NCBI GenBank assembly: GCA_002699025.1
Contig: PABA01000048.1
Span: 1-64,000 of the forward strand
DNA: 64,000 bases
Source of the DNA: Sandaracinus sp.
Lineage (GTDB): Bacteria > Myxococcota_A > Polyangia > Polyangiales > Houyiibacteriaceae
Reading direction: 5' to 3'
The position numbers and the translations under genes are program-made. The notes beneath the pieces were generated by a model that was not told the DNA's origin, did no database searches, and saw only the letters and a program-made list of their open reading frames with translations. Below, piece after piece: positions 5,845-20,484 of this stretch; position 1 is the stretch's first letter, and each line of letters starts with the position of its first letter.

Positions 5845-7331
5845 GCGCCGGACGTTGGCTCGACGCGGGCGTCGTCGGGGCCGCGGACGCGGTCGCGGCC
5901 GGGGCCGTGACGGCGGAGGCGCTGGTCGGCGAGGCCCTCGGGCGGCTGCGGAGCGACCCGCACAACGCCGTGCTCCACGTCGACGGCGAGGCGGCGCTCG
6001 AGGCGGCGCAGCAGGTCGACGCGGCGCGCGCGGCGGGCGAGGCCCTCGGCCCGCTCGCGGGGGTACCGGTCGCGCTCAAGGACAACCTCTGCCAGCGCGG
6101 CACGCCGACGACCTGCGCGTCGCGCCTCCTCGAGGGCTGGGTCGCGCCCTACGACGCGCACGTGGTCGAGCGGCTCCGCGCCGCCGGCGCCATGCTCGTC
6201 GCCAAGACCAACATGGACGAGTTCGCCATGGGCTCGTCCAACGAGACGAGCGCCTTCGGCCCGGTGAAGAACCCCTGGGACCCGGCCCGCGCGCCCGGGG
6301 GCTCGAGCGGCGGCTCGGCGGCGGCCGTCGCCGCGCGCCTCGTGCCAGGCGCCCTCGGCAGCGACACGGGCGGCTCGGTCCGACAGCCCGCGGCGTTCTG
6401 CGGGCTCTTCGCCCTCAAGCCGACCTACGGGCGCGTCTCCCGCTACGGCCTCGTCGCCTTCGCCTCGAGCCTGGACCAGGTCGGGCCCTTCGCCCGCAGC
6501 GCCCGCGACGGGGCGCGGCTCTTCGCCGCCATCGCCGGGCGCGACGGGCGCGACGCCACCAGCGCGGACGCGCCGAGCGCGGACTGGGAGGGCGCCTGCG
6601 CGCGGGGCGTCGAGGGGCTGCGCGTCGGCGTGCCCCGGGCGCTCCTCGAGGGCGCGTCCGCCGGCGTCCGGGCGCGCATCGACGCGGCCCTCGAGGCGCT
6701 GAAGGACGCGGGCGCGACCCTCGTCGACGTCACGCTGCCTCACGCGAAGCACGGCGTGAGCGTCTACTACCTGGTCGCGCCGGCGGAGGCCTCGAGCAAC
6801 CTCGCGCGCTTCGACGGGGTCCGCTACGGGCTCCGCGTCGAGGAGGGCGGCGGGCTCGACGCCATGTACGAGGCCACCCGCGCGCGCTTCGGCCCCGAAG
6901 TGAAGCGGCGCATCCTCCTCGGCACCTACGCGCTCTCGGCCGGCTACTACGACGCCTACTACTTGCGCGCTCAGAAGGTGCGCACGCTCATCCGCCGCGA
7001 CTACGACGCCGCCTTCGAGGCCTGCGACGTCGTCGCCACGCCCACGGCGCCCACGGTCGCCTTCCCCCTCGGGGAGCGCACGGACGACCCGCTGACCATG
7101 TACCTCTCGGACGTCTACACGCTGCCGGCCAGCCTCGCGGGGCTGCCGGCGATCAGCACGCCCGCCGGCCTGAGCGAGGGCCTGCCCACGGGCCTCCAGC
7201 TCGTCGGCCGCGCCTTCGACGAGGCCACCCTCTTCGCGGCCGCCGGCGCCCTCGAGAAGGCCTTCGGCCCGCTGCCTTCGCCGGTGCCGGCCGGGCCGGG
7301 CGAGCACGCGGGCGAGGAGGGCGCGTCGTGA
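5841..7331 (+). CDS. gatA: Asp-tRNA(Asn)/Glu-tRNA(Gln) amidotransferase subunit A
   Basis: The 496-aa glutaminase subunit of the amidated-tRNA pathway. It releases ammonia from glutamine and passes it to GatB. The amidase-signature catalytic triad is visible: Lys in VALKDNLC, the cis-Ser in [13 protein letters not shown], and the nucleophile region [15 protein letters not shown]. The start is a GTG at 5841 overlapping the gatC stop, and the stop at 7331 overlaps the gatB GTG start. Length and motifs are normal for the family. No oddity seen. Confidence 0.97.
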
Positions 7332-8782
7332 GCGCCTGGGAGGCGGTGGTCGGGCTCGAGGTCCACGCCCAGCTGCGGACGCGGACCAAGCTCTTCTGCG
7401 CGTGCCCGAACGAGTTCGGCGCGCCCCCGAACACGCACGTCTGCCCCGTCTGCCTGGGGCTCCCCGGGGCGCTCCCGGCGCCGAACGAGGCGGCCATCGA
7501 CCTCGCCCTCCGCGCGGCGCTCGCCCTCGGCGGCGAGGTCCGCGAGCGGAGCGTCTTCGCGCGCAAGAGCTACTTCTACCCGGACCTCGCGAAGGGCTAC
7601 CAGATCAGCCAGTTCGCCCTGCCGATCATCGAGGGCGGTGCCGTGCCGATGGCGCTCGAGGGCGAGGCCCGGAGCGCGGCGCTGACGCGCATCCACCTCG
7701 AGGAGGACGCCGCCAAGAACCTGCACGTGCAGGGCGAGACGGTCGTCGACTTCAACCGCGCGGGCACGCCGCTCATCGAGATCGTCGGCGAGCCCGTGCT
7801 CCGGAGCGGGGCCGAGGCGGAGGCCTACCTCCGCGCGCTGCGGGAGGTGCTCGTCTTCATCGGCGTGAACGACGGCAACCTCGAGGAGGGCTCCTTCCGC
7901 TGCGACGCGAACGTGTCGATCCGCCCGAAGGGCGAGGAGCGGCTCGGGACGCGCGTGGAGCTGAAGAACATCAACTCGTTCCGCTTCGTGCGGAAGGCCA
8001 TCGACCACGAGGTCGCGCGGCAGGCGGCGCTCCGGGAGAGCGGCGGCGAGGTGGTGCAGGAGACGCGGACCTGGGACGAGCGCCAGGAGCGGACGGTGGC
8101 CATGCGCGGCAAGGAAGAGGCGCACGACTACCGCTACTTCCCCGATCCGGACCTGCCGCCGCTGGTGGTCGACGCGGCGCGCCTCGCGCGGGCGGAGGAG
8201 ACCCTGCCGGAGCTGCCCGCGGCGATGCGGGCGCGCTGGGTCGAGACCCTCGGGCTCACGGCCCAGGACGCGGGCGTGCTCGCGGCGCATCCGGCCATCG
8301 CGGCGTACTTCGAGGCGGTGGCGACGGGGCTCGGCGAGGCGGCCGGGCTGAAGCCGGCGAAGGCCGGCAAGAAGGCGGCGAACTTCGTGATGGCGGAGGT
8401 GCTCCGGGAGACGGCGACCGAGGGGGTCGAGGCGCGCTTCCCGGCCGCGGCGCCCGAGGTGGCGGCGCTCCTCGCGCTGGTCGAGGACGGGACGATCAAC
8501 GGGAAGATCGCCAAGGAGGTCTTCGCGAAGATGGTCGCCACGGGGGAGCCGCCGAAGACGATCGTCGAGCGCGAGGGGCTCGCGCAGGTGACGGACACGG
8601 CGGCCATCGAGGCGGTCGTGCGCGAGGTGCTCGCGGCGAACCCGAAGCAGGTCGAGCAGTACCGGGGTGGGAAGACGGCCGTGCTCGGCTTCTTCGTCGG
8701 GCAGGTGATGAAGGCGACGCGCGGGCAGGCGAACCCGAAGGCGGTCAACGAGATCCTGCGCGCCCTGCTCGCCGAGGGCTGA
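7328..8782 (+). CDS. gatB: Asp-tRNA(Asn)/Glu-tRNA(Gln) amidotransferase subunit B
   Basis: The 484-aa tRNA-binding and kinase subunit that phosphorylates the misacylated Glu or Asp and amidates it with ammonia from GatA. It opens with [13 protein letters not shown] and contains the family's zinc-type cysteines (CACPNEF and CPVCLG), the motif [17 protein letters not shown], and the [10 protein letters not shown] and [12 protein letters not shown] segments. A GatB/YqeY tail (about 350-484) ends [11 protein letters not shown]. The GTG start overlaps the gatA stop. With gatA and gatC this is a complete GatCAB operon, suggesting that the organism makes Gln- and/or Asn-tRNA indirectly. Confidence 0.97.
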
Positions 8783-10089: not shown

Positions 10090-12330
10090 TCAGACGTGGA
10101 GGTCCGCGTCCTCGCCCTCGGCGCCGACGCGGAGCGTGCGGTCGCGGAGCGCCGGGTCCTTCGCGAGCCGCACGGCGAGGGGCGTGACCACGTGCGCCTC
10201 GAGGGCCTGCTTCAGCGGTCGCGCGCCGTACCGGGGCGCGTAGCCGAGCTCGGCGAGGCGCCGCTCGGCGGCCGGGCTGATCTCGAGCCGGATGCCGCGC
10301 CGGGCGAGCCCTTCGCGGGTGGCGATGCCCGCGAGCTGCAGGCGGGCGATGCGCGCCACGTCCTCGAGGGCGAGGCCCCGGAAGGGCACGAGCTGGTCGA
10401 CGCGCCCCACGAACTCGGGCCGGAAGTGGTCGCGCACGGCGCGCAGGAAGTCCGCCCCCGCCTCCTCGGCGCCGAAGCCCACCGGCGCCGTCTCCCGCAC
10501 GCCCAGGTTCGAGGTCATCACGATCAGCGTCATGCGGAAGTCGACGAAGCGGCCGAGGAGATCGGTCAGGCGCCCCTCGCCGAGCACCCCGAGCAAGAGA
10601 TCGAAGGCCTCCGGGTGCGCCTTCTCGATCTCGTCGAAGAGGACCACCGAGAGCGGCTGCCGGCGCACGCTCTCCGCCAGGCTCCGCACCCCGCGCCCGG
10701 CCGCGAGGAGCCGCCGCGCCGCGCCGGGGGCGCCGAGCTCGCTCATGTCCACGCGCACGAGCCGCTCCTCGCTCCCGAAGAGGTAGCGCGTCATCTGCTT
10801 GGCGAGCTCGGTCTTGCCCACGCCGGTCGGCCCGCAGAAGAGCAGGCTCGCGAGCGGCCGGTCCGGCGCGTTCAGCCCCGCCTTGAAGGGCGCGATGGCC
10901 CGCGCGGCCTGCAGGCATGCCGCGTCTTGCCCGACGACCCCCTGGCGCAGCCGCTCGGCCACCTGCTCGACGCTCGCCGCGTAGCGATCGCTGATCAGCT
11001 CGAGGGGCAGGCCGGTCTGCCGCGCGAAGGCCTCTTCGGCGTCCCGCGGGTAGAGCGTGCCGGCCGTCGCCTCGTCGCGCTCGAAGGCCTCCACCAGGTG
11101 GAAGGCCTTGCCGGGGAAGGCGCGGTCCCGCCGGTAGGCGGCGAGGAGCTCGAGGCCCCGCTTCAGCGCGCGCGGGTGCCAGTCCTTCGGCCCACGCTCG
11201 GCGCGCTCGCGGACGCGCTGGAGGGTCCAGGCGAGCGTCGGCTCGGGCAGGAGCCGGCGCTCGAGCAGCTCGACGAAGCCCGGGTCCTGGCGCCGCGCCT
11301 CCACGAGCTCCGCCTCCGTGCACTCGGCGACGAGGCGGAGCTCGCCCGCGCGCACGGCCGGCGCCAGCAGGTCGGCGACGCTCGCGCCGTCGGGCTGGGG
11401 GCGGAGCAGGGGCCCGAGCCGGTCCACGTAGAGCAGGTCCCCGCGGCCCGCGAGCTCGTCGACGAGGGCGAGCACGCGCTCCTGCCACATGCCCACGTAG
11501 ATCATGCCGGCGAGGAGCCGGTCGGCGCTCGTCGCCCAGAGCTTCGGCGCGAGCGCGTCCTCCCGCCGCTTGGCGAGGAGCGCCCGCGCCAGGTGCCGCA
11601 CCTCCGTCGTCTTACCGACCCCCGGCGGGCCCACCAGCAGGAGCGAGCGCTCCCCGCTCCCGTCGAGCCCGAGCCGCGCCGCGCCGATGGGCCGCTCGAG
11701 GCGCCCCTTCGCGGCCCGCTCGACCCACTCGTCGGCCACCTGCCGCAGCGTGGGCAGCTCCTCGTCCTCGCTCGTCCCCGGGGGCGGTGCCCCGCGCTCG
11801 CTCCGCGCGAAGTCCGGCAGCCACTCCCGCACGTACTCCTCGCCCTCGCGGCGGAAGTCGTAGAGCCAGGCCGGCTCGGCGCCCATCAGCGCGCCGGCGA
11901 CCGCGTGCGCGAGCGCGTCCTTCGCGGCGTCGAGGTCCTCGAGGATCAGCCACCAGGAGAAGCGCGGGAGCATCACCCGGAAGGCGCCGCTCTCCATCTT
12001 CGACCAGGCGTAGCTCAGCCGCAGCGGGAGCCGCCGGCCGCCGATGACGGGCTGCTTGTCGATGACCGCCGCCGGGTGCACGTCGAGGCGCACGCTCCGC
12101 GTCTGGAAGCGCTCGGTCCAGAGGTAGCGGTCGAGCGTCTCGTCCGTCGTCACGAGCCGCTCCTGGAGCAGCGCCGCGAGGCGCTCGAAGACCTCCTCCT
12201 CGGTCGCGCCGTAGGCCGCGGGCGGCGGCCGATCGAAGAAGCTCGACCAGGCGCGCATGAGCAGGCCCGTCCGGTGGCCGTCGGCATGCGCCACGAAGTA
12301 GACGCGGAGGCTCGGTTTCGGGCGGCTCAT
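10090..12330 (-). CDS. ClpB-like double AAA+ ATPase, third gene of the trio (short form)
   Basis: A 746-aa paralogue without the long C-terminal extension of its two neighbours. Residues 1-170 are a special N-terminal domain, not the ClpN domain. D1 has Walker A GPPGVGKT (234-241), but its Walker B reads DLLYVDRLGPL (about 298-308), with Arg replacing the catalytic Glu. D1 pore loop 1 is IYVGMWQER. D2 has a sound Walker A GPTGVGKT (500-507), Walker B VVLFDEIEKAHP, sensor-1 VMTSNLG and sensor-2 YGARPLKQ. The GYVG pore loop expected between SELGAP and LAESVRRQP is missing. The ATG overlaps the stop of the upstream gene (ATGA). The three genes are translationally coupled and probably make one hetero-complex; the substrate is unknown. 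Confidence 0.9.
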   Translation of the reverse strand: MSRPKPSLRVYFVAHADGHRTGLLMRAWSSFFDRPPPAAYGATEEEVFERLAALLQERLVTTDETLDRYLWTERFQTRSVRLDVHPAAVIDKQPVIGGRRLPLRLSYAWSKMESGAFRVMLPRFSWWLILEDLDAAKDALAHAVAGALMGAEPAWLYDFRREGEEYVREWLPDFARSERGAPPPGTSEDEELPTLRQVADEWVERAAKGRLERPIGAARLGLDGSGERSLLLVGPPGVGKTTEVRHLARALLAKRREDALAPKLWATSADRLLAGMIYVGMWQERVLALVDELAGRGDLLYVDRLGPLLRPQPDGASVADLLAPAVRAGELRLVAECTEAELVEARRQDPGFVELLERRLLPEPTLAWTLQRVRERAERGPKDWHPRALKRGLELLAAYRRDRAFPGKAFHLVEAFERDEATAGTLYPRDAEEAFARQTGLPLELISDRYAASVEQVAERLRQGVVGQDAACLQAARAIAPFKAGLNAPDRPLASLLFCGPTGVGKTELAKQMTRYLFGSEERLVRVDMSELGAPGAARRLLAAGRGVRSLAESVRRQPLSVVLFDEIEKAHPEAFDLLLGVLGEGRLTDLLGRFVDFRMTLIVMTSNLGVRETAPVGFGAEEAGADFLRAVRDHFRPEFVGRVDQLVPFRGLALEDVARIARLQLAGIATREGLARRGIRLEISPAAERRLAELGYAPRYGARPLKQALEAHVVTPLAVRLAKDPALRDRTLRVGAEGEDADLHV

Positions 12331-15300
12331 GGGCGCGGCTCCTCCCAGGACATGCCCAGCCAGAGGCACTCGCCGAAGAGCTCGAGGGGGCGTTGGGCCT
12401 CGCCGCTCCTGACGTGGCCGAGCCGGTAGTCCTCGAGCTCCATGGGGGCGCGCTCGCCGCCGCGGAGGGGGCGGTCGAAGCGCACCCGGCGGACCACCGG
12501 GGCCAGCGCCTCCGGCGACTCGGGGAGCGGGTCCTCGCCGGCCTCGAGCGCGGCCTCGAAGCGCGCTCGGGCTTCCACGAAGGCCTCGATGCGCTCGGTG
12601 GCGGGGCGGTCGGCGGGGAGCACGCGCACCCGGACCACCTCGGAGCCGCCGGTGATGGAGCTCAGCACGTGGCAGCCGACCTCGCTCTCGAGCCGCCGCC
12701 GGAGCGCGACCCCCGTCAGGTCGAGCACGAGCAGGTCGGTGGCCGTGCGGGGGGCCTCTTCCGGGTCGAGGCGCAGGGCCTGGTCCCCCTGGAGCGCGGC
12801 GCCGCCGGAGACCTCCGCGGCGAGGTCCGCGTAGTGCGCGCAGAGGTCGCCGAAGAGGCCGAGCGCGGTGCGGTGGCGCGCGTGGCCGACGCGCAGGAGC
12901 TCCACGTGCACCCGGTGGGCGCCGAGGTCGTCCTCCTCGCGCACGGCCCGCTCGAGGAGCGCGACCTCGGCGAGGGCCGAGAGGATCGCCCGCCGGTCGA
13001 GCGGGCGCGGGGCCTGGGCGCGCATCATGCGCCGGTCCAGGAAGCGCGTGCGCGGGCCGTGGAGGGCGCCCTCGGGGATGGGCCCGCGGACGTACTCCTG
13101 CGTCGCGAGCTCGAGCTCGGCCTCGCGCTGGAGCTCGTCCGCGCGCACGGCGGCCTCGAGGCGTTCGCGGAGCGCGTCGGCCTCGCGGCGGAGCCCGTCG
13201 AGCAGGTACACGGCGTCCGCGTCCCGCGCCGACTCGCTCGCCTTCGCGAGGTGCCCGGCGATGCGCTCGCCGAGGGCCTCGAGGCCGTCCTCCCGGAGCC
13301 GGTCGAGGCGCTCGAGGGCGTCCGCGAGCGCGCCCCGGAGCTGGGCCGCGGGCTGGTCGAGGAGCGGGCGGAGCGGCGAGTCCCCGGGCCGCGGCTCGGC
13401 CTCGCGGAGCGCCTCGCTGCGCAGGCGGTAGGCTCCGTCGCGATCGTAGAGGCGGATGAGCTCCATCTCCGGCCGCGCCGTCGCCGCGAGGTGCTCGGCG
13501 AGGAGCGATGCGACCCGGGTCTCGAGGTAGCGGCGCACGGAGCGGGCGCCGGCGCGGCTGTCGAAGGCCTCGCGCGCCATGCGCTCGGTGGCGCTCTGGT
13601 GGGCGAAGACGAAGACGTTCCGCTCGGTCAGCCCGCGCCGGCCGAGGAGCGCGGCGAGCTCCTTGTCGGCGATGGCGGCGGCGACCTCGTCGCCGAGCGG
13701 CTGGAAGGGGACGATGCGCTCGATGCGGTTGAAGAGCTCGGGCGGGAAGAAGTCCTTCACGGCCTTCGTCACCTCCGCCTCCACGGACGCGGCGCTCTCC
13801 TCCCCGAAGCCGACGGCCGGCCGGGCCCGGGCGCCGAGGTTCGAGGTGAGCACGACGACGGCGTGGCGGAAGTCGACGAGCTCGCCGGTGGCGTCGGTGA
13901 GGCGGCCGTCGTCGAGGAGCTGGAGGAGGAGGTAGAGCACGCTCGGGTGCGCCTTCTCGATCTCGTCGAGGAGGAGCACGCAGAAGGGCTGCTGGCGGAC
14001 CGCCTCCGTGAGCATGCCGCGCGGCTCCCAGCGGTCCCCGATGAGCCGGGCGACGGCGTCGGGGCCGGAGAGCTCGCCCATGTCGAAGCGCACCAGCCGG
14101 TCGTCGCCGAAGAGGTAGCTCGCGAGGGTCTTCGTGAGCTGCGTCTTGCCCGTACCCGTGGGGCCCGTGAAGAGGTACGCGCCCCAGGGGCGGCCGGGAT
14201 CGGTGAGCCCGGCGCGGATGCGCATGACGAGATCGGCGGCCGCCTCCACGGCCTCCGGTTGGCCCATGACCTCGGCCGCGAGATCCTCGACCGCGCTCTG
14301 CCGGTCGTCCCCCTCGAGGGGGGCGATGAGGTCGGCCATCAGCCCGGTGCGCTGCGTCAGGAGGTGGAGGACCGCCTGCTCGTCGACCGACGACCCGCCG
14401 GCCAGCGCGTGCAGCAGGTCGAGCGCCTTCCCCGGGAGCGCCTGGTTCGCGAGGAGCGGCGCGCCGTGCTCGAGGATCGCCCGGAAGGCCTCCGGCTCGA
14501 ACGTCAGCTCCGGTCGCTCGGCCTCGAGGCGCCGCGCCTCGTGCAGCAGCATGCGCCGCGTCTCCGCCGCGCTCGCCGGCTCCACCCGCAGCGTCCCGAA
14601 GAGCGAGGCGAAGGCCGGCGCGTCCTCCTCGAGGCGCCGCCACTGGGCCGGCGTGGCGGTGCCGAGGAGCACCAGCTCGCCGCGCTGCACGGGGCCGCGG
14701 AAGAAGTCCGCCATGCTCCGCTCGCTCTCCTTGCTCCGCCCCACGCGCCCGAGCGTGTGCAGGTCCTCGAAGGCGAGGATCACGCGGCGCCCGCGGACGG
14801 CCTCGACGATCTCCACGCAGCGCTGCTCCCACTGGCCGAGGTAGGACATGCCGGCGATGAGGCGGCTCGCGGCGAGCTCCCAGACGTGCGTGACCTCGTC
14901 GAGGTTGCGGTGCGCGTCGAAGCCGTCGTGGCGGAGCAGGTCGTCGATGGCGCGACGGAGCAGGGTGCGCTTGCCGACGCCGGGCGGGCCGAGGAGGGCG
15001 AGGGAGCGCGGGTGCGGCACGCAGAGGAGCTGCTGCAGCTGGCTTCGCTGGGGCTCGCGGGGCCGGCCGAGCTCGAGGAGCTCGCTCGCGGCGCGCTCCG
15101 TGAGGTCGCGCCCGAGGCGGCGGAGGAGGCTCGGCTGGCCCCGGCGGGGCGCCTTGCCCTTCTTCCCGCGCGTCGGGTCGACCTTCAGGTCGTCCCAGAC
15201 GGACTTCTTGCGACGCTCGAGCTGGTCGAGGAGCGAGCGCGGCTTCACGCTCAGGGCGAGCGGCGCGACGCGGTCGCGGGCGTGGGCCTTGAGCGCTTCC

Positions 15301-15746
15301 AGGCCGTCGTCGTCGAGGGCGCCCCAGCGGTCGCCGAAGAAGGCCGCGAGCTGGGGCGCGAGCTCCTGGCGCTCGTCGATGGCGAGGACCTCGAGCTGGC
15401 GGAGCGGGTGATAGGCGAAGCGGAGCCGCTCGTCGCCGGTGCGGTAGCGCGTGTCGAGGACGATGGGGAAGACGCCGGTGCGCTTGCGCTTGCCGCGGCG
15501 GTCGGGGTCCCGGAGCGTGAGCTCGAGGCGCAGGCGTTCGAGGCGGATCCGCTGGGGCCCGAGGAGGGCCCGGAGCGCGTGCGGCGGCGCCTCGCCGACG
15601 GCGGCCTTGAGCCGGTCGACGAAGCTGCGGCGGAGGCGCGCCTCGCTCCGCATCGTCAGCGCGAAGCCGAGCCCGCCGAGGCCGACGGAGGCCCAGGTCA
15701 GCAGCCCGTCCTTCTTGCGGTGGAAGATCGGGACGGTGACGTTCAC
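12327..15746 (-). CDS. ClpB-like double AAA+ ATPase, second gene of the trio, with PCRF-like tail
   Basis: A protein of 1139 aa from a GTG start that overlaps the upstream stop (GTGA). A short hydrophobic stretch lies at about 14-32, within a family-specific N-terminal domain (about 1-240). D1: Walker A GPPGVGKR (253-260), Walker B VILAFEDLHTL (about 322-332, with the D-E pair replaced by E-D) and pore loop SYLGQWEQR. D2: Walker A GPTGTGKT (528-535), LLLDEIEKAHP (about 591-601), VVLTSNLGA and a sensor-2-like AGARSVRR; between ARLIGD and GMLTEAVRQQP the usual PGYVGYEEGG is absent. A long helical linker (about 790-900) leads to about 915-1045, where RRLESEVGCHVLSSITGG resembles the release-factor PCRF core. 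No GGQ motif is seen. Function unknown. Confidence 0.9.
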   Translation of the reverse strand: MNVTVPIFHRKKDGLLTWASVGLGGLGFALTMRSEARLRRSFVDRLKAAVGEAPPHALRALLGPQRIRLERLRLELTLRDPDRRGKRKRTGVFPIVLDTRYRTGDERLRFAYHPLRQLEVLAIDERQELAPQLAAFFGDRWGALDDDGLEALKAHARDRVAPLALSVKPRSLLDQLERRKKSVWDDLKVDPTRGKKGKAPRRGQPSLLRRLGRDLTERAASELLELGRPREPQRSQLQQLLCVPHPRSLALLGPPGVGKRTLLRRAIDDLLRHDGFDAHRNLDEVTHVWELAASRLIAGMSYLGQWEQRCVEIVEAVRGRRVILAFEDLHTLGRVGRSKESERSMADFFRGPVQRGELVLLGTATPAQWRRLEEDAPAFASLFGTLRVEPASAAETRRMLLHEARRLEAERPELTFEPEAFRAILEHGAPLLANQALPGKALDLLHALAGGSSVDEQAVLHLLTQRTGLMADLIAPLEGDDRQSAVEDLAAEVMGQPEAVEAAADLVMRIRAGLTDPGRPWGAYLFTGPTGTGKTQLTKTLASYLFGDDRLVRFDMGELSGPDAVARLIGDRWEPRGMLTEAVRQQPFCVLLLDEIEKAHPSVLYLLLQLLDDGRLTDATGELVDFRHAVVVLTSNLGARARPAVGFGEESAASVEAEVTKAVKDFFPPELFNRIERIVPFQPLGDEVAAAIADKELAALLGRRGLTERNVFVFAHQSATERMAREAFDSRAGARSVRRYLETRVASLLAEHLAATARPEMELIRLYDRDGAYRLRSEALREAEPRPGDSPLRPLLDQPAAQLRGALADALERLDRLREDGLEALGERIAGHLAKASESARDADAVYLLDGLRREADALRERLEAAVRADELQREAELELATQEYVRGPIPEGALHGPRTRFLDRRMMRAQAPRPLDRRAILSALAEVALLERAVREEDDLGAHRVHVELLRVGHARHRTALGLFGDLCAHYADLAAEVSGGAALQGDQALRLDPEEAPRTATDLLVLDLTGVALRRRLESEVGCHVLSSITGGSEVVRVRVLPADRPATERIEAFVEARARFEAALEAGEDPLPESPEALAPVVRRVRFDRPLRGGERAPMELEDYRLGHVRSGEAQRPLELFGECLWLGMSWEEPRP

Positions 15747-18700
15747 GACGCCTCCCCCTCGGCCGGCTCCGTGTCGAGCGGCGCCACGTAGAGGTCCGCC
15801 CGCTCGAGGCGCGGGTCCAGGTCGATGTGGATCAGGTCGCGGAGCGCGAGCTCGTCGGCGTTCGGCGGGGACCAGTACGCCTCGAGGGGGACGTGGACGT
15901 AGTCCGGGGGGAGCCGCTGGCCGGGACGCTCGTCGGACCAGCGCACGACCCGGCGCTTGCCGAGCTTGTCGGCGGGCGGCGGGCGCGGCGGCGTCATGGC
16001 CGGGTGCGCCCAGTCGGCGTCGCCGAGCGTGTCGCGCATGGCGAGGCGCGTGACCAGGTGGTGTGCGCCGGCGACGCGGGGCGGGATCCCGATGTAGCGG
16101 TGCAGGCCGCACTCGACCGACAGCAGCGTGCCGGCGTGGGGGCCGCGGACGCGGAGGAGCACGATGGCGCGGTCGCGCTCCTTCCGGGCGAGCCACTCGG
16201 CCACCCAGGCCGGGTCGCGCGGCGGGCCCCAGGCCCGGTCGGCGGGCCAGCTCGGATCGTCGCGGAGGCCGTCCTTGAAGAGGTGCAGCGTCGCCGACCA
16301 GCTCCGCCGCTCGAGATCCGCCAGGAGCGTCGCGAGCCAGACGTCGAGCGTGCGCCCCTCGTCGAGCTCCTCGCAGCGCACGGTGATCGCGTCCCGCCGA
16401 TCGCCGGCCAGGATCACCTCGAGGAGCGCCATGCGCGCCCGATGCCGAAGCGCGCGGGCCTCCTCCTCCGCGCCCGGGTAGCGCTCGTCCTCGAAGTAGG
16501 CCGCGAAGACGAGCTCCTCGAGGTCGAGCACCTCGCCGCGGGCCGCCTCGAGCTTCTCCCAGAGCGCGCTCGCCGCGTGGTGCTCGCGCTGCAAGCGCGC
16601 GAGCTCGGCGCCGCTCCGGGCGCGCTCCTTCTTCGAGCGGGGCGCGTTCAGCTGGGCGAGGAGCGCCCGCACCTGCTCGCGATGCGCCTCGATGGTGGGC
16701 AGTTGGAGCCAGGCGTCGAGGTCCCGCCGGAGCCCGGTGATCGCGTCGAGCCCCGCGCGCCCCGCCGAGGGCGCCTCGCCCTCGCTGCTCCAGCTCCGGG
16801 CCTCCACGACGAGCTCGCCCCGCGCGGCGCGCTTCAGCGGGTTCGGCTCGGCCGGCGCGTCGCGATGACGCACGCGCACGCTCGCGCCCTTCGCCTGGGC
16901 GCCGAGGCCCGTGACGACCTCCGCGAGCGGCGCCACGAGCGCCTCCTCGACGTGCCGACGGAGCGCCCGCGCCCCGTAGGCCGGGTCGAACCCTCCGCGC
17001 GCCAGCGCGTCCAGGGCGCCGTCGTCGACCTGCAGCCCGATGCCCCGGTCGGCGATGCCCCGGCGCCGGGCGACCCGGTCGAGGACCATGCGCGTGATCG
17101 CCGCGATCTCGTCCTCCCCGAGCGCCGCGAAGGGGATGATGCGATCGAGGCGACCGACGAGCTCGGGGCGGAAGCTCTGCCGGACGGCGCCCGCGTAGTG
17201 CTGCTCGAGGTCCCGGGCCGGCGTCGCCTCCTCGCCGCGGATGCCGAGCCGCCCGAGCCGATGGGTGGCGCCGAGGTTGCTCGTGAGGATCAGGATCGCG
17301 TTGTGGAAGTAGGCCGTCCGCCCGCGCCCGTCCGTGAGCCGGCCCTCGCCCGTCACCTGGAGGAGGAGGTCGAAGACCGCCGGGTGGGCCTTCTCGATCT
17401 CGTCGAGGAGGACGACGGCGAAGGGCTGCTCCCGCAGCGGGCGCGTGAGCAGGCCCTCGCGCCCGGCGGCGCCGACGAGGCGCTCGGCGGCGAGCGGGTC
17501 GGCGAACTCGCTCATGTCGAGGCGGACGAGGCGCTCCTCGCTCCCGTAGAGCACCTCCGCGAGCGCGCGCGCGAGCTCGGTCTTGCCGACGCCCGTGGGC
17601 CCGGCGAAGAGGAAGGTCGCGAGCGGCTTGTCGCCCGGCTGGAGCGCCGCCTTCACGACGCAGAGCGTGTCGACGACCGCGTCCACGGCCGCCCGCTGGC
17701 CGACGAGGCGCGCGCGGAAGCGGGCGCGGAGCCGCTCCGGGTCGAGGCTCCGGTCCTCGCGGAGGAGGAACTCGGGCACGCCCGTCTGCACGCTGAAGAG
17801 GCGATAGACGTCGCGGCCGCTCACCTGGTGGGCCGCGTCGAGGGCGACGCCCGGGCGCTCGGCGCCGGCGGCCACGCGGTCGAAGAGCTCGGCGGCCTTG
17901 CCCGGGAAGGGGCGGTAGGGGAGGTAGCGGTCCGCGAGGGAGACGATGGCGGCGCGGGCCCCTTCGCCCACGTCGGGGCCCCCGGCCTCGACGAGCCAGG
18001 CGGCGCGCGCGTCGACCACGGCCCGCCCGGCCTGCGCGTCGGCGCCCGGGACGCGCACCGTGTGGAAGCTCTGGAAGAAGCCCTCGTGCTGGCTGCCGAG
18101 GAGGTCCGCCGCCTCCTCCGTGAGCTCGCCGACGACGCGCACGCGCCCCTCCTCGAGGGCCGGCTTGATCGCGCCCGCCAGGTCGACGCCGCCCCCGGCG
18201 CGGCTCCGATCGAAGAGGTCGCGGAGATCGTCGAAGTAGAGGATCGCGTCGAGCTCCTCGGCGGCCGCGAGCACGCGGGCCACGCGCTCCTGCCACTGGC
18301 CGAGGCCGCTCATGCCGGCGACGAGCTGGGCGCCGCTCGTCCCGTAGACGCGCTTCCCTTCGCCGGGCCCGCGCAGCCAGGCCTTCAGCGCCGCCGTCTT
18401 GCCGACGCGCTCGGGCCCCGCGAGGAGCACGGCGTGGCGCGGCTCGCCGCCGAGCAGGGCGTCGAGGCGGGCGACGGTCTCCTCGGCGCCGACGATCGGT
18501 GGGCCGGCGAGGGCCGCCTCGTCGTGGAGGCGCGTCGCGACCGAGTCGAGGACTTCGGCGGCGTGCTTGCGGGCGCGGGCGCGCACGAGGTCGCGCTGGA
18601 GCTGGCGGAAGCCCCGGTCGGGCCCCTCGCCGGGGCCGCGGAGCGGGATGCTCACGCGCAGGAGCCGGTGATCCGTCGGCGGGAGCAGGGCGAGGCGGTC

Positions 18701-19141
18701 GAAGGCGCGCGGCTCGACGGCGCGGAGGTGGCGGCCGAGCTCGCGGGCGACCGTCTCCTCGAGGGGCTCGTCCCGGCCGACGAAGATCGTGTGCTGGAGC
18801 GTGGGGACGAGCACCCAGCGGCCGTCCTCGTGGGGCACGACGACGGCGTCGAAGCGGACCTCGGGGCCGCGGCGGAGGCTCTCGGGCAGCTCGGGCTCGG
18901 GGAGGGGGACCTCGAGGGCGAGGGGCGCGGCGTCGGGCGGGATGGCGAAGCGCGCGACCGTCGCCGGCGGGGCCTCGGCGAGCTCCTCGGAGAGCACGAG
19001 CCGGAGCTCGGTCAGGGCGTCTTCCTCGCTGCCCGCGCTCGCCCAGGACGGGTCGACGACCGGGTAGGCCACGCAGGTGCCGTCCGGGAGCTCGTCCAGG
19101 GCCACGAGGGTCTCGATCTGCAGCCGCGCCACGGCGCGCAT
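15743..19141 (-). CDS. ClpB-like double AAA+ ATPase, first gene of the trio, HicB-like N-terminus and PCRF-like tail
   Basis: A protein of 1132 aa. Residues 1-60 read like a HicB-type fold (DELPDGTCVAYPVVDP then DALTELRLVLSEEL), and 90-140 match the N-terminal domain shared by the trio. D1: Walker A GPERVGKT (242-249), Walker B AILYFDDL (Asp for Glu) and pore loop SGLGQWQER lacking the tyrosine. D2: Walker A GPTGVGKT (514-521), VVLLDEIEKAHP (576-587), ILTSNLGA (618-625), YGARALRR (722-729), and no GYVG loop. A coiled region (785-900) is followed by a domain (900-1030) with LEVILAGDRRDAITV and LLSVECGLHRYIGIPP, recalling the PCRF domain of RF1/RF2. The start is 14 bp from the divergent dipeptidase ATG. 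Confidence 0.9.
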   Translation of the reverse strand: MRAVARLQIETLVALDELPDGTCVAYPVVDPSWASAGSEEDALTELRLVLSEELAEAPPATVARFAIPPDAAPLALEVPLPEPELPESLRRGPEVRFDAVVVPHEDGRWVLVPTLQHTIFVGRDEPLEETVARELGRHLRAVEPRAFDRLALLPPTDHRLLRVSIPLRGPGEGPDRGFRQLQRDLVRARARKHAAEVLDSVATRLHDEAALAGPPIVGAEETVARLDALLGGEPRHAVLLAGPERVGKTAALKAWLRGPGEGKRVYGTSGAQLVAGMSGLGQWQERVARVLAAAEELDAILYFDDLRDLFDRSRAGGGVDLAGAIKPALEEGRVRVVGELTEEAADLLGSQHEGFFQSFHTVRVPGADAQAGRAVVDARAAWLVEAGGPDVGEGARAAIVSLADRYLPYRPFPGKAAELFDRVAAGAERPGVALDAAHQVSGRDVYRLFSVQTGVPEFLLREDRSLDPERLRARFRARLVGQRAAVDAVVDTLCVVKAALQPGDKPLATFLFAGPTGVGKTELARALAEVLYGSEERLVRLDMSEFADPLAAERLVGAAGREGLLTRPLREQPFAVVLLDEIEKAHPAVFDLLLQVTGEGRLTDGRGRTAYFHNAILILTSNLGATHRLGRLGIRGEEATPARDLEQHYAGAVRQSFRPELVGRLDRIIPFAALGEDEIAAITRMVLDRVARRRGIADRGIGLQVDDGALDALARGGFDPAYGARALRRHVEEALVAPLAEVVTGLGAQAKGASVRVRHRDAPAEPNPLKRAARGELVVEARSWSSEGEAPSAGRAGLDAITGLRRDLDAWLQLPTIEAHREQVRALLAQLNAPRSKKERARSGAELARLQREHHAASALWEKLEAARGEVLDLEELVFAAYFEDERYPGAEEEARALRHRARMALLEVILAGDRRDAITVRCEELDEGRTLDVWLATLLADLERRSWSATLHLFKDGLRDDPSWPADRAWGPPRDPAWVAEWLARKERDRAIVLLRVRGPHAGTLLSVECGLHRYIGIPPRVAGAHHLVTRLAMRDTLGDADWAHPAMTPPRPPPADKLGKRRVVRWSDERPGQRLPPDYVHVPLEAYWSPPNADELALRDLIHIDLDPRLERADLYVAPLDTEPAEGEAS

Positions 19142-19155
19142 GGTAGTGGATCGGG

Positions 19156-20484
19156 ATGCGCGCTTGGGTGCTCGTCCTCCTTCTCCTCGCCGCCGCCTGC
19201 GATGGCGACGACGACGCGCCGGCCGCGCCCCCCGACGAGCGGGCGGAGGAGCCGGCCGAGGCCCGGGCGGCGCAGGGAGACCCCGCCGAGACCGCCCCGG
19301 AGCCCGCGCCGCTCCCGCCTCCGCCGAACATCCCGGTCGCGCCTCCGAGCGAGGGGCCCGTGATCGCGATCGACACGCACGTCGACACGACGCAGCGCAT
19401 GCTCGACGAGGGCGACGATCCCTTCGAGCCGCTCGAGGGGGGCCACCTCGACGTGCCGCGCATGCGCGAGGGCGGGCTCACGGGCGCGTTCTTCAGCATC
19501 TACGTGAGCCCGCGCCGCGTCGAGGCCGGCGAGCCGAGCTGGGAGCGGGCCCTGGCGCTCATCGCGCGGGTCCGGGAGGTCGCCGAGGCGCACCCGGACG
19601 AGGCCGTGCTCGCGACGAGCGCCGAGGACGTCCGGCGCGCGGCGCGGGAGGGCAAGATCGCGATGCTCATGGGCGTGGAGGGGGCCCACGCGCTCGGCAC
19701 GGACGATCCGGAGCGCGCGCTCGAGCGCATCCGCGAGCTCCATCGGCGCGGGGCGCGCTACATGACGATCACCTGGTCCGTGGACAACCCGCTCGGGCAC
19801 TCCTCCACCGGCGAGCATCCGGACCGCGGCCTCACGCCCCTCGGGCGGCGCGCCGTGCGGCTGATGAACGAGCTCGGGATGATCGTCGACGTCTCGCACG
19901 TCAGCGACCGCACCTTCTGGGACATCATGGAGGTGGCCGAGCGCCCGGTGCTGGCGAGCCACTCCTCCGCGCGCGCCCTGGCCGACCATCCGCGCAACAT
20001 GCGCGACCGGATGATCCACGCGGTGGCGGCGGGCGGCGGGGCGGTCTGCGTGAACTACTACACGCAGTACATCGACGCCGACTACCGGGGCCGGCGCCGC
20101 GCCATCGAGTTCCGGCGGCGGCGGGAGTTCGAGGCCCTCGACGAGGACCACGAGAGCTGGGTCGATCGGGGCCGGGCCGCCTTCGCGCTCGCCCGGCGCC
20201 TCGATCCGGAGCTCGACCCGCCGGACCTCGGCACGCTGGCCGACCACTTCGAGCACATCGTGCGCATCGGGGGACCGAGCGCCGCGTGCCTCGGCTCGGA
20301 CTTCGACGGCGTCCCCGAGCTGCCCGTGGGCATGGAGGACGTGTCGGACCTCGGCGCGCTGCGGGCGGCGCTCGAGGCCCGCGATCTGCCGATCCGGCCG
20401 ATCTTCGGCGGGAACGTGCTGCGCGTCCTCGCCGCGGCGGGGCCCGGGGACGCGGACGCGGACCGGGGCGCCCCGGAGGAGTAG
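19156..20484 (+). CDS. Membrane dipeptidase (peptidase M19), lipoprotein
   Basis: A 442-aa zinc dipeptidase of the renal dipeptidase family, which cleaves dipeptides including those with D-residues. The N-terminus MRAWVLVLLLLAAACDGDD is a lipoprotein signal with the cysteine in AAAC, followed by a disordered Glu/Ala/Pro linker (about 20-75). Catalytic features are the HxD zinc ligands in IDTHVDTT, the Glu of GVEGAH, the histidine in VDVSHVSD and LASHSSARAL, and LGSDFDGVPEL. It lies divergent to the Clp-like trio with only 14 bp between the start codons, and converges on the DUF2330 gene 13 bp downstream. It is expected at the outer membrane or in the periplasm. Confidence 0.92.
   Translation: MRAWVLVLLLLAAACDGDDDAPAAPPDERAEEPAEARAAQGDPAETAPEPAPLPPPPNIPVAPPSEGPVIAIDTHVDTTQRMLDEGDDPFEPLEGGHLDVPRMREGGLTGAFFSIYVSPRRVEAGEPSWERALALIARVREVAEAHPDEAVLATSAEDVRRAAREGKIAMLMGVEGAHALGTDDPERALERIRELHRRGARYMTITWSVDNPLGHSSTGEHPDRGLTPLGRRAVRLMNELGMIVDVSHVSDRTFWDIMEVAERPVLASHSSARALADHPRNMRDRMIHAVAAGGGAVCVNYYTQYIDADYRGRRRAIEFRRRREFEALDEDHESWVDRGRAAFALARRLDPELDPPDLGTLADHFEHIVRIGGPSAACLGSDFDGVPELPVGMEDVSDLGALRAALEARDLPIRPIFGGNVLRVLAAAGPGDADADRGAPEE

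Follow-up and report, generated by a model that had tools for sequence, protein, structure and literature searches.

Double-ring ATPases of the Hsp100/Clp class and class-I release factors (RFs) are the described proteins closest to a three-gene locus of Sandaracinus sp. (Myxococcota). The locus lies in a window of 64,000 nucleotides, the whole stretch of DNA that was analysed (contig PABA01000048.1, positions 1 to 64,000). Its genes, here called P1 (15743..19141, 1132 amino acids), P2 (12327..15746, 1139 amino acids, GTG start) and P3 (10090..12330, 746 amino acids), are on the minus strand, as are all of their parts given below. The GTG start of P2 overlaps the stop codon of P1 (GTGA), and the ATG of P3 overlaps that of P2 (ATGA). 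A preliminary description of the locus as three overlapping double-AAA+ genes was exact in coordinates, lengths and junctions. P1 consists of an N-terminal domain (N-domain), a degenerate first AAA+ domain (D1), a predicted active second one (D2) without the GYVG pore loop, and a C-terminal RF module without the GGQ domain. P2 repeats this architecture, and P3 has the N-domain, D1 and D2 only. Like ClpB/Hsp104 and ClpA/ClpC, the three proteins have two AAA+ domains, a ClpB_D2-small domain and intact D2 ATPase motifs. Unlike them, they have no GYVG in D2, no M-domain, a degenerate D1 and an N-domain without a Pfam match; they form three co-inherited paralogs, two of which end in an RF-derived module.

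Proteins of the release-factor type have been linked to ATPases in other systems. Dom34, which acts in rescue, is without the catalytic glutamine, and Vms1, described as a peptidyl hydrolase, works with the AAA+ protein Cdc48 (PMC6514570). Dom34/Pelota resembles P1 and P2 as a GGQ-less protein of the RF type, and codon independence and coupling to nucleoside triphosphate (NTP) hydrolysis would, for the trio, be further shared traits. It belongs to an unrelated superfamily (aeRF-1), however, and the likeness is an analogy only. Vms1-Cdc48 also brings together a release-factor domain and a double-ring AAA+ ATPase, but as separate proteins, with an RF domain of another superfamily and with a hydrolytic Vms1. 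PrfH and ArfB are likewise RF-derived; unlike P1 and P2 they have the catalytic glutamine, and they are not described with an AAA+ motor (PMC6514570). Pex1 and Pex6 are paralogous double-AAA+ subunits of one ring, as proposed here for the trio, but they are eukaryotic, belong to another AAA clade and thread their substrates (PMC4490564). Clp is absent from a 2019 survey of release factors, which covers RF1, RF2, ArfB, PrfH and organellar forms (PMC6514570). In the open-access full texts searched, neither an AAA+ or Clp protein fused to a class-I RF nor a trio of this kind was found described, in keeping with the preliminary description, which knew of none. The architecture itself is well supported; within that literature, its parts are of known kinds and their assembly is not.

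The strongest clue to the function of the trio lies in the C-terminal modules of P1 and P2 (about 360 residues each), which the preliminary description had missed. Their likeness to release factors was seen by eye first (in P1, 'LLSVECGLHRYIGIPPRV') and then tested. Searches with single sequences gave PCRF at an expectation value (E) of only 0.13, under the Pfam cut-off, and no match in the PDB; ortholog profiles and structure models resolved the modules. In a search of all PDB sequences with a profile of the orthologous P1 C-termini, RF1 was the top match (E 0.0022), and seven of the nine matches were RF1 or RF2. Pfam PCRF was matched by 13 of 22 orthologous P1 C-termini (best 6.8e-5), with no other family recurring. 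In hhalign comparisons with 18 RFs of the same phylum, for which 40 column-shuffled profiles served as controls, the P1 module reached a probability of 96.2 and a score of 74.3 (shuffled controls at most 21.8) and the P2 module a score of 45.3 (controls at most 18.9). The two modules are also homologous to each other (profile-profile probability 96.5).

Structure prediction from the ortholog alignments led to the same fold. AlphaFold2 gave a predicted local distance difference test (pLDDT) of 91 and a predicted template modelling score (pTM) of 0.86 for the P1 C-terminus, and values of 90 and 0.87 for that of P2. In Foldseek searches of the PDB, the top 36 rows for P1 and the top 30 for P2 (best 2.4e-7) were all RFs. 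VIA-align placed RFs in all of the top 34 rows for P1 (Z 12.8 to 9.9) and in 39 of the top 41 or more rows for P2 (Z 12.9). Such Z values can be reached by helical bundles by chance, but the RF match also spans the alpha/beta domain and stands above unrelated rows. The modules of P1 and P2 are almost certainly homologous to the class-I release factors RF1 and RF2.

As modelled, both modules keep RF domain 1 and the core of domain 2/4, the fold of RF1/RF2 (PCRF and RF-1 domains), together with the E.G.H(R) motif. By AlphaFold2 and VIA-align, RF domain 1 corresponds to a helical bundle in P1 (approximately 16400..16768) and in P2 (approximately 12939..13349). The domain 2/4 fold follows in P1 (approximately 15815..16390), where 'ECGLHR' recalls the 'E.GVHR' of RFs, and in P2 (approximately 12330..12929), where residues 166-363 of the module fall on RF domain 2/4 (141 residues at a root-mean-square deviation of 3.3, RF chain 9fy1). 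Unlike RF1/RF2, both are fused to a Clp motor and have no GGQ domain 3 in the models; its place is taken by a short helix and/or linker without GGQ, in P2 by one helix and a linker. The stop-codon motifs PxT and SPF are unrecognisable in both C-termini, as judged by eye only. Four P1 orthologs (L085-L088) do contain the letters GGQ, but upstream of RF domain 1 and outside any GGQ domain, and this was dismissed as a coincidence. Separate normal RF genes are present in the genomes tested.

Release-factor modules are not confined to the trio. In a tree of 73 D2 domains, the 60 rows without GYVG all fall on one side of a branch from 13 GYVG-type Clps (Shimodaira-Hasegawa-like approximate likelihood-ratio test 99.9), and P1, P2 and P3 are each monophyletic; this is a quick tree, in which the deep order within the GYVG-less clade is open. 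Since all GYVG-less rows form one clade, the loss of the pore loop is compatible with a single event. The clade includes, also in Myxococcota, a paralogous, GYVG-less second trio (L105 5671-15420, minus strand) and two GYVG-less gene pairs (L106 4911-11935 and L107 5386-12465, both minus strand); several of these second-type proteins have RF-like C-termini. It also includes a single-gene type, found in several families of Myxococcota (L108 5408-8881, minus strand, and L122-L137), whose C-terminus is nearly a whole RF2. The C-terminus of this L108 type matches PCRF at 45.8 bits against a cut-off of 24 and aligns with RFs in hhalign over 299 columns (probability 99.8, E 1.3e-28), and its GGQ is replaced, for example by GRF, GTY, GRR or GGP. 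The sister proteins L108, L105 and L106 exceed the Pfam PCRF cut-off. The RF fusion thus recurs through the GYVG-less clade, although the module is absent from P3 and from one or more second-type proteins. A search of plasmids for the L108-type C-terminus gave ordinary prfB-like matches only. A Clp-like gene of Archangium (L168, 953 amino acids) has another GYVG-less D2 loop and forms a long branch beside the L108 type.

The three genes of the trio are inherited together. A scan with P3-specific patterns in 84,980 bacterial and archaeal species, one genome per species, returned 35 loci, whose titles are all assigned to Myxococcota or consistent with it, among them Sorangium cellulosum, Minicystis rosea, Archangium and Hyalangium. 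Most of these loci carry the contiguous trio; genomes with an unlinked P3, such as that of Sorangium cellulosum So ce26, have P1 and P2 at another place. P1, P2 and P3 stand in this order at 13 relative loci wherever the contig permits. Subunit-specific N-domain profiles found all three genes in 30 of 379 Myxococcota genomes. The distinct, conserved trio without the canonical D2 pore loop that the preliminary description had named as support for its reading is present in many genomes. Two further genomes are one gene short for explicable reasons (a contig end in G039, a broken P2 in G144), and two carry a P1-like N-domain only (G055 and G188). A number of single, weak matches (E 1e-3 to 1e-10; G162, G336, G037 and G277 among them) are probably second-type relatives and were excluded from the count. 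The co-occurrence has a Fisher p of 2e-42, a value that ignores shared ancestry and is descriptive only. Genomes with the trio are mostly large (about 7-13 Mb), and the small genomes of that family lack it.

The trio is almost perfectly co-inherited, as subunits of a hetero-oligomer naturally would be, and P1, P2 and P3 very probably form one hetero-oligomeric system. Of the hetero-oligomeric remodelling or signalling machine suggested earlier, the single assembly is therefore retained, while no evidence was found for signalling. The idea that the trio is a signalling or conflict (defence) NTPase draws on the multi-component AAA+ conflict systems of Myxococcota (PMC7159879). It is very improbable: PADLOC matches cover generic AAA stretches only and none falls on the RF modules, and no effector neighbour, conserved or variable, was found. 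The trees of P1, P2 and P3 are also largely congruent, which indicates vertical descent. No flanking partner is universal across the loci, where only local synteny was seen. Such synteny is seen in the gatA/gatB-like genes beyond the 3' end of the trio (window 5855-8782, plus strand), which are found likewise in three close relatives. The divergent neighbour of P1 (window 19156-20484, plus strand) has, by eye, the look of a membrane dipeptidase-type lipoprotein.

The N-domains of P1 (18542..19132), P2 (15177..15743) and P3 (11776..12318) are homologous to one another, and a recurring Pfam family was sought for each of the three without result. The rest of the motor is of the Clp kind. All three proteins match AAA_2 at 135-142 bits (cut-off 27) and ClpB_D2-small at 35-56 bits (cut-off 21.9). 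In NCBIfam they match ClpB and ClpA best, far under the curated equivalog cut-offs (TIGR03346, 304-317 bits versus 1232). The two Walker A motifs are about 270 residues apart, compared with 402 in the ClpB of the same genome and 280 in its ClpA/C-like protein; from this spacing, the trio has no ClpB M-domain. On these sequence criteria, P1, P2 and P3 are members of the Hsp100/Clp class and not ClpB, and the earlier label 'ClpB-like' holds only loosely. Of the IGF/IGL-type ClpP-docking loop, a motif too short to be telling, many P2 and P3 proteins show VGF/VGI-like tripeptides, and P1 shows IGI/LGI or none.

The D2 motifs were compared in 83 aligned rows (24 P1, 26 P2 and 33 P3), which comprise the three proteins of the window and 80 orthologous genes. 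Walker A K/T, Walker B D/E, the sensor-1 N, the arginine finger and the sensor-2 R are invariant, bar one Walker A K in P1, which bears out the claim of intact D2 motifs. The claim that the D2 loop is shortened and without GYVG was confirmed as well: not one of the 83 rows contains GYVG, and the segment from the MSE strand to the DEIEKA stretch has 44-45 residues (47 in one P1 row) versus 50 in the genome's own ClpB/ClpA-type proteins. At the place of GYVG, the proteins of the window have GAAGREG (P1, 17453..17473), GDRWEPRG (P2, 14016..14039) and AAGRGVR (P3, 10684..10704). That the shortened loop has no aromatic residue is true of P1 and P3 but not cleanly of P2. P1 effectively has none, with two matches that sit off the loop tip, and P3 has none in 33 rows, but P2 carries W, Y or F in 24 of 26. 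The same genome encodes a further ClpB-like protein (G000:C80:19654-20613, L119) with GYKD instead of GYVG in its D2 loop, and L156 reads GYAD.

D1 is degenerate by its motifs. Its Walker B is D-R in P3, Glu is not among the residues common at this second position in P1 and P2, and arginine-finger-like residues are unconserved in the same alignment of the trio. The D1 loop AGMx(Y/G)xGxW is nevertheless conserved, with Y or F in 33 of 33 P3 proteins. D2 is ATPase-competent as far as motifs can tell and is likely the motor. With the P2 aromatic and the conserved D1 loop, the proteins may still grip a substrate, and the earlier view that they are not ordinary unfoldases is to be qualified to this extent.

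Two other explanations build on this residual grip. In one, the trio is a protein-remodelling or unfolding Hsp100 in which D1 loops and the P2 aromatic grip the substrate, D2 hydrolyses ATP, and the RF modules are adaptor or assembly domains away from the ribosome. The strong conservation of the D1 loop, the P2 aromatic and the divergence of the RF modules are in its favour. This explanation is unlikely, though it deserves weight: D1 has neither a normal Walker B Glu nor conserved arginine fingers, P1 and P3 have no loop aromatic in D2, and the clade's other subfamilies carry RF modules too. In the second explanation, the RF arms serve to recognise stalled ribosomes, from which the ring extracts the nascent chain or a ribosome-bound protein by threading, as eukaryotic Cdc48 does with Vms1. 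The pairing of RF and AAA+ parallels that system (PMC6514570) and the D1 loop could grip. With the D2 grip gone in P1 and P3 and a D1 that looks like a weak motor, a threading extraction machine is improbable.

We propose instead that P1, P2 and P3 are paralogous subunits of a single hetero-oligomeric Hsp100/Clp ring that docks and pulls. Their clade lost the D2 GYVG loop, for which one event suffices, and in it class-I RF modules are fused behind D2. The RF arms would sit on the D2 face, where rings of the ClpA type dock ClpP. The arms may bind the ribosome in the A site or close to it, independently of the codon and without hydrolysis of peptidyl-tRNA. Motion of the D2 ring, driven by ATP, would pull the docked arms, so that a factor, a transfer RNA (tRNA) or the nascent chain is dislodged or a stalled ribosome is split. 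The outcome would be remodelling, clearing or splitting, and not peptide release. The logic would be that of Dom34/Pelota, which works together with NTPases, but realised with bacterial parts. That the trio acts on ribosomes at all is somewhat probable, and we give about an even chance to the proposal that it does so by docking and pulling with hydrolysis-dead RF arms on a hetero-oligomeric Clp motor.

Two related P1 orthologs (L064 6265-6444 and L021 4334-4513, both plus strand) end in an L7/L12 C-terminal segment above the Pfam cut-off. This is a weak hint of the ribosome, because the short fold is common to ClpS and is used elsewhere (PMC7159879). P2 of L081 has a similar L7/L12-like motif internally. 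Several observations weigh against action on ribosomes. In the two related genomes that have it, the L7/L12 segment extends over no more than about 30 of 67 positions, with a fold that ClpS shares. At about 12-18% identity, the RF modules of P1 and P2 have diverged greatly, and their fold may have been re-used off the ribosome. By itself P2 matches RFs weakly in sequence, and its C-terminal profile returned no RF from the PDB sequences, only coiled-coil noise. No translation gene was found as a universal neighbour across the loci.

What would such a machine mean for the Myxococcota? The trio could be their counterpart of Dom34 rescue and splitting, with codon-blind, dead RF arms that pull stalled or idle ribosomes apart without threading through the D2 pore; by analogy with Dom34, this is conceivable but doubtful. 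If the arms do bind ribosomes, the trio would be an ATP-driven bacterial ribosome-remodelling machine of a new design. As a natural Hsp100 without the canonical D2 grip, it may also show what such a ring can do mechanically. The system occurs in the culturable, genome-sequenced Sorangium, Minicystis, Archangium and Hyalangium.

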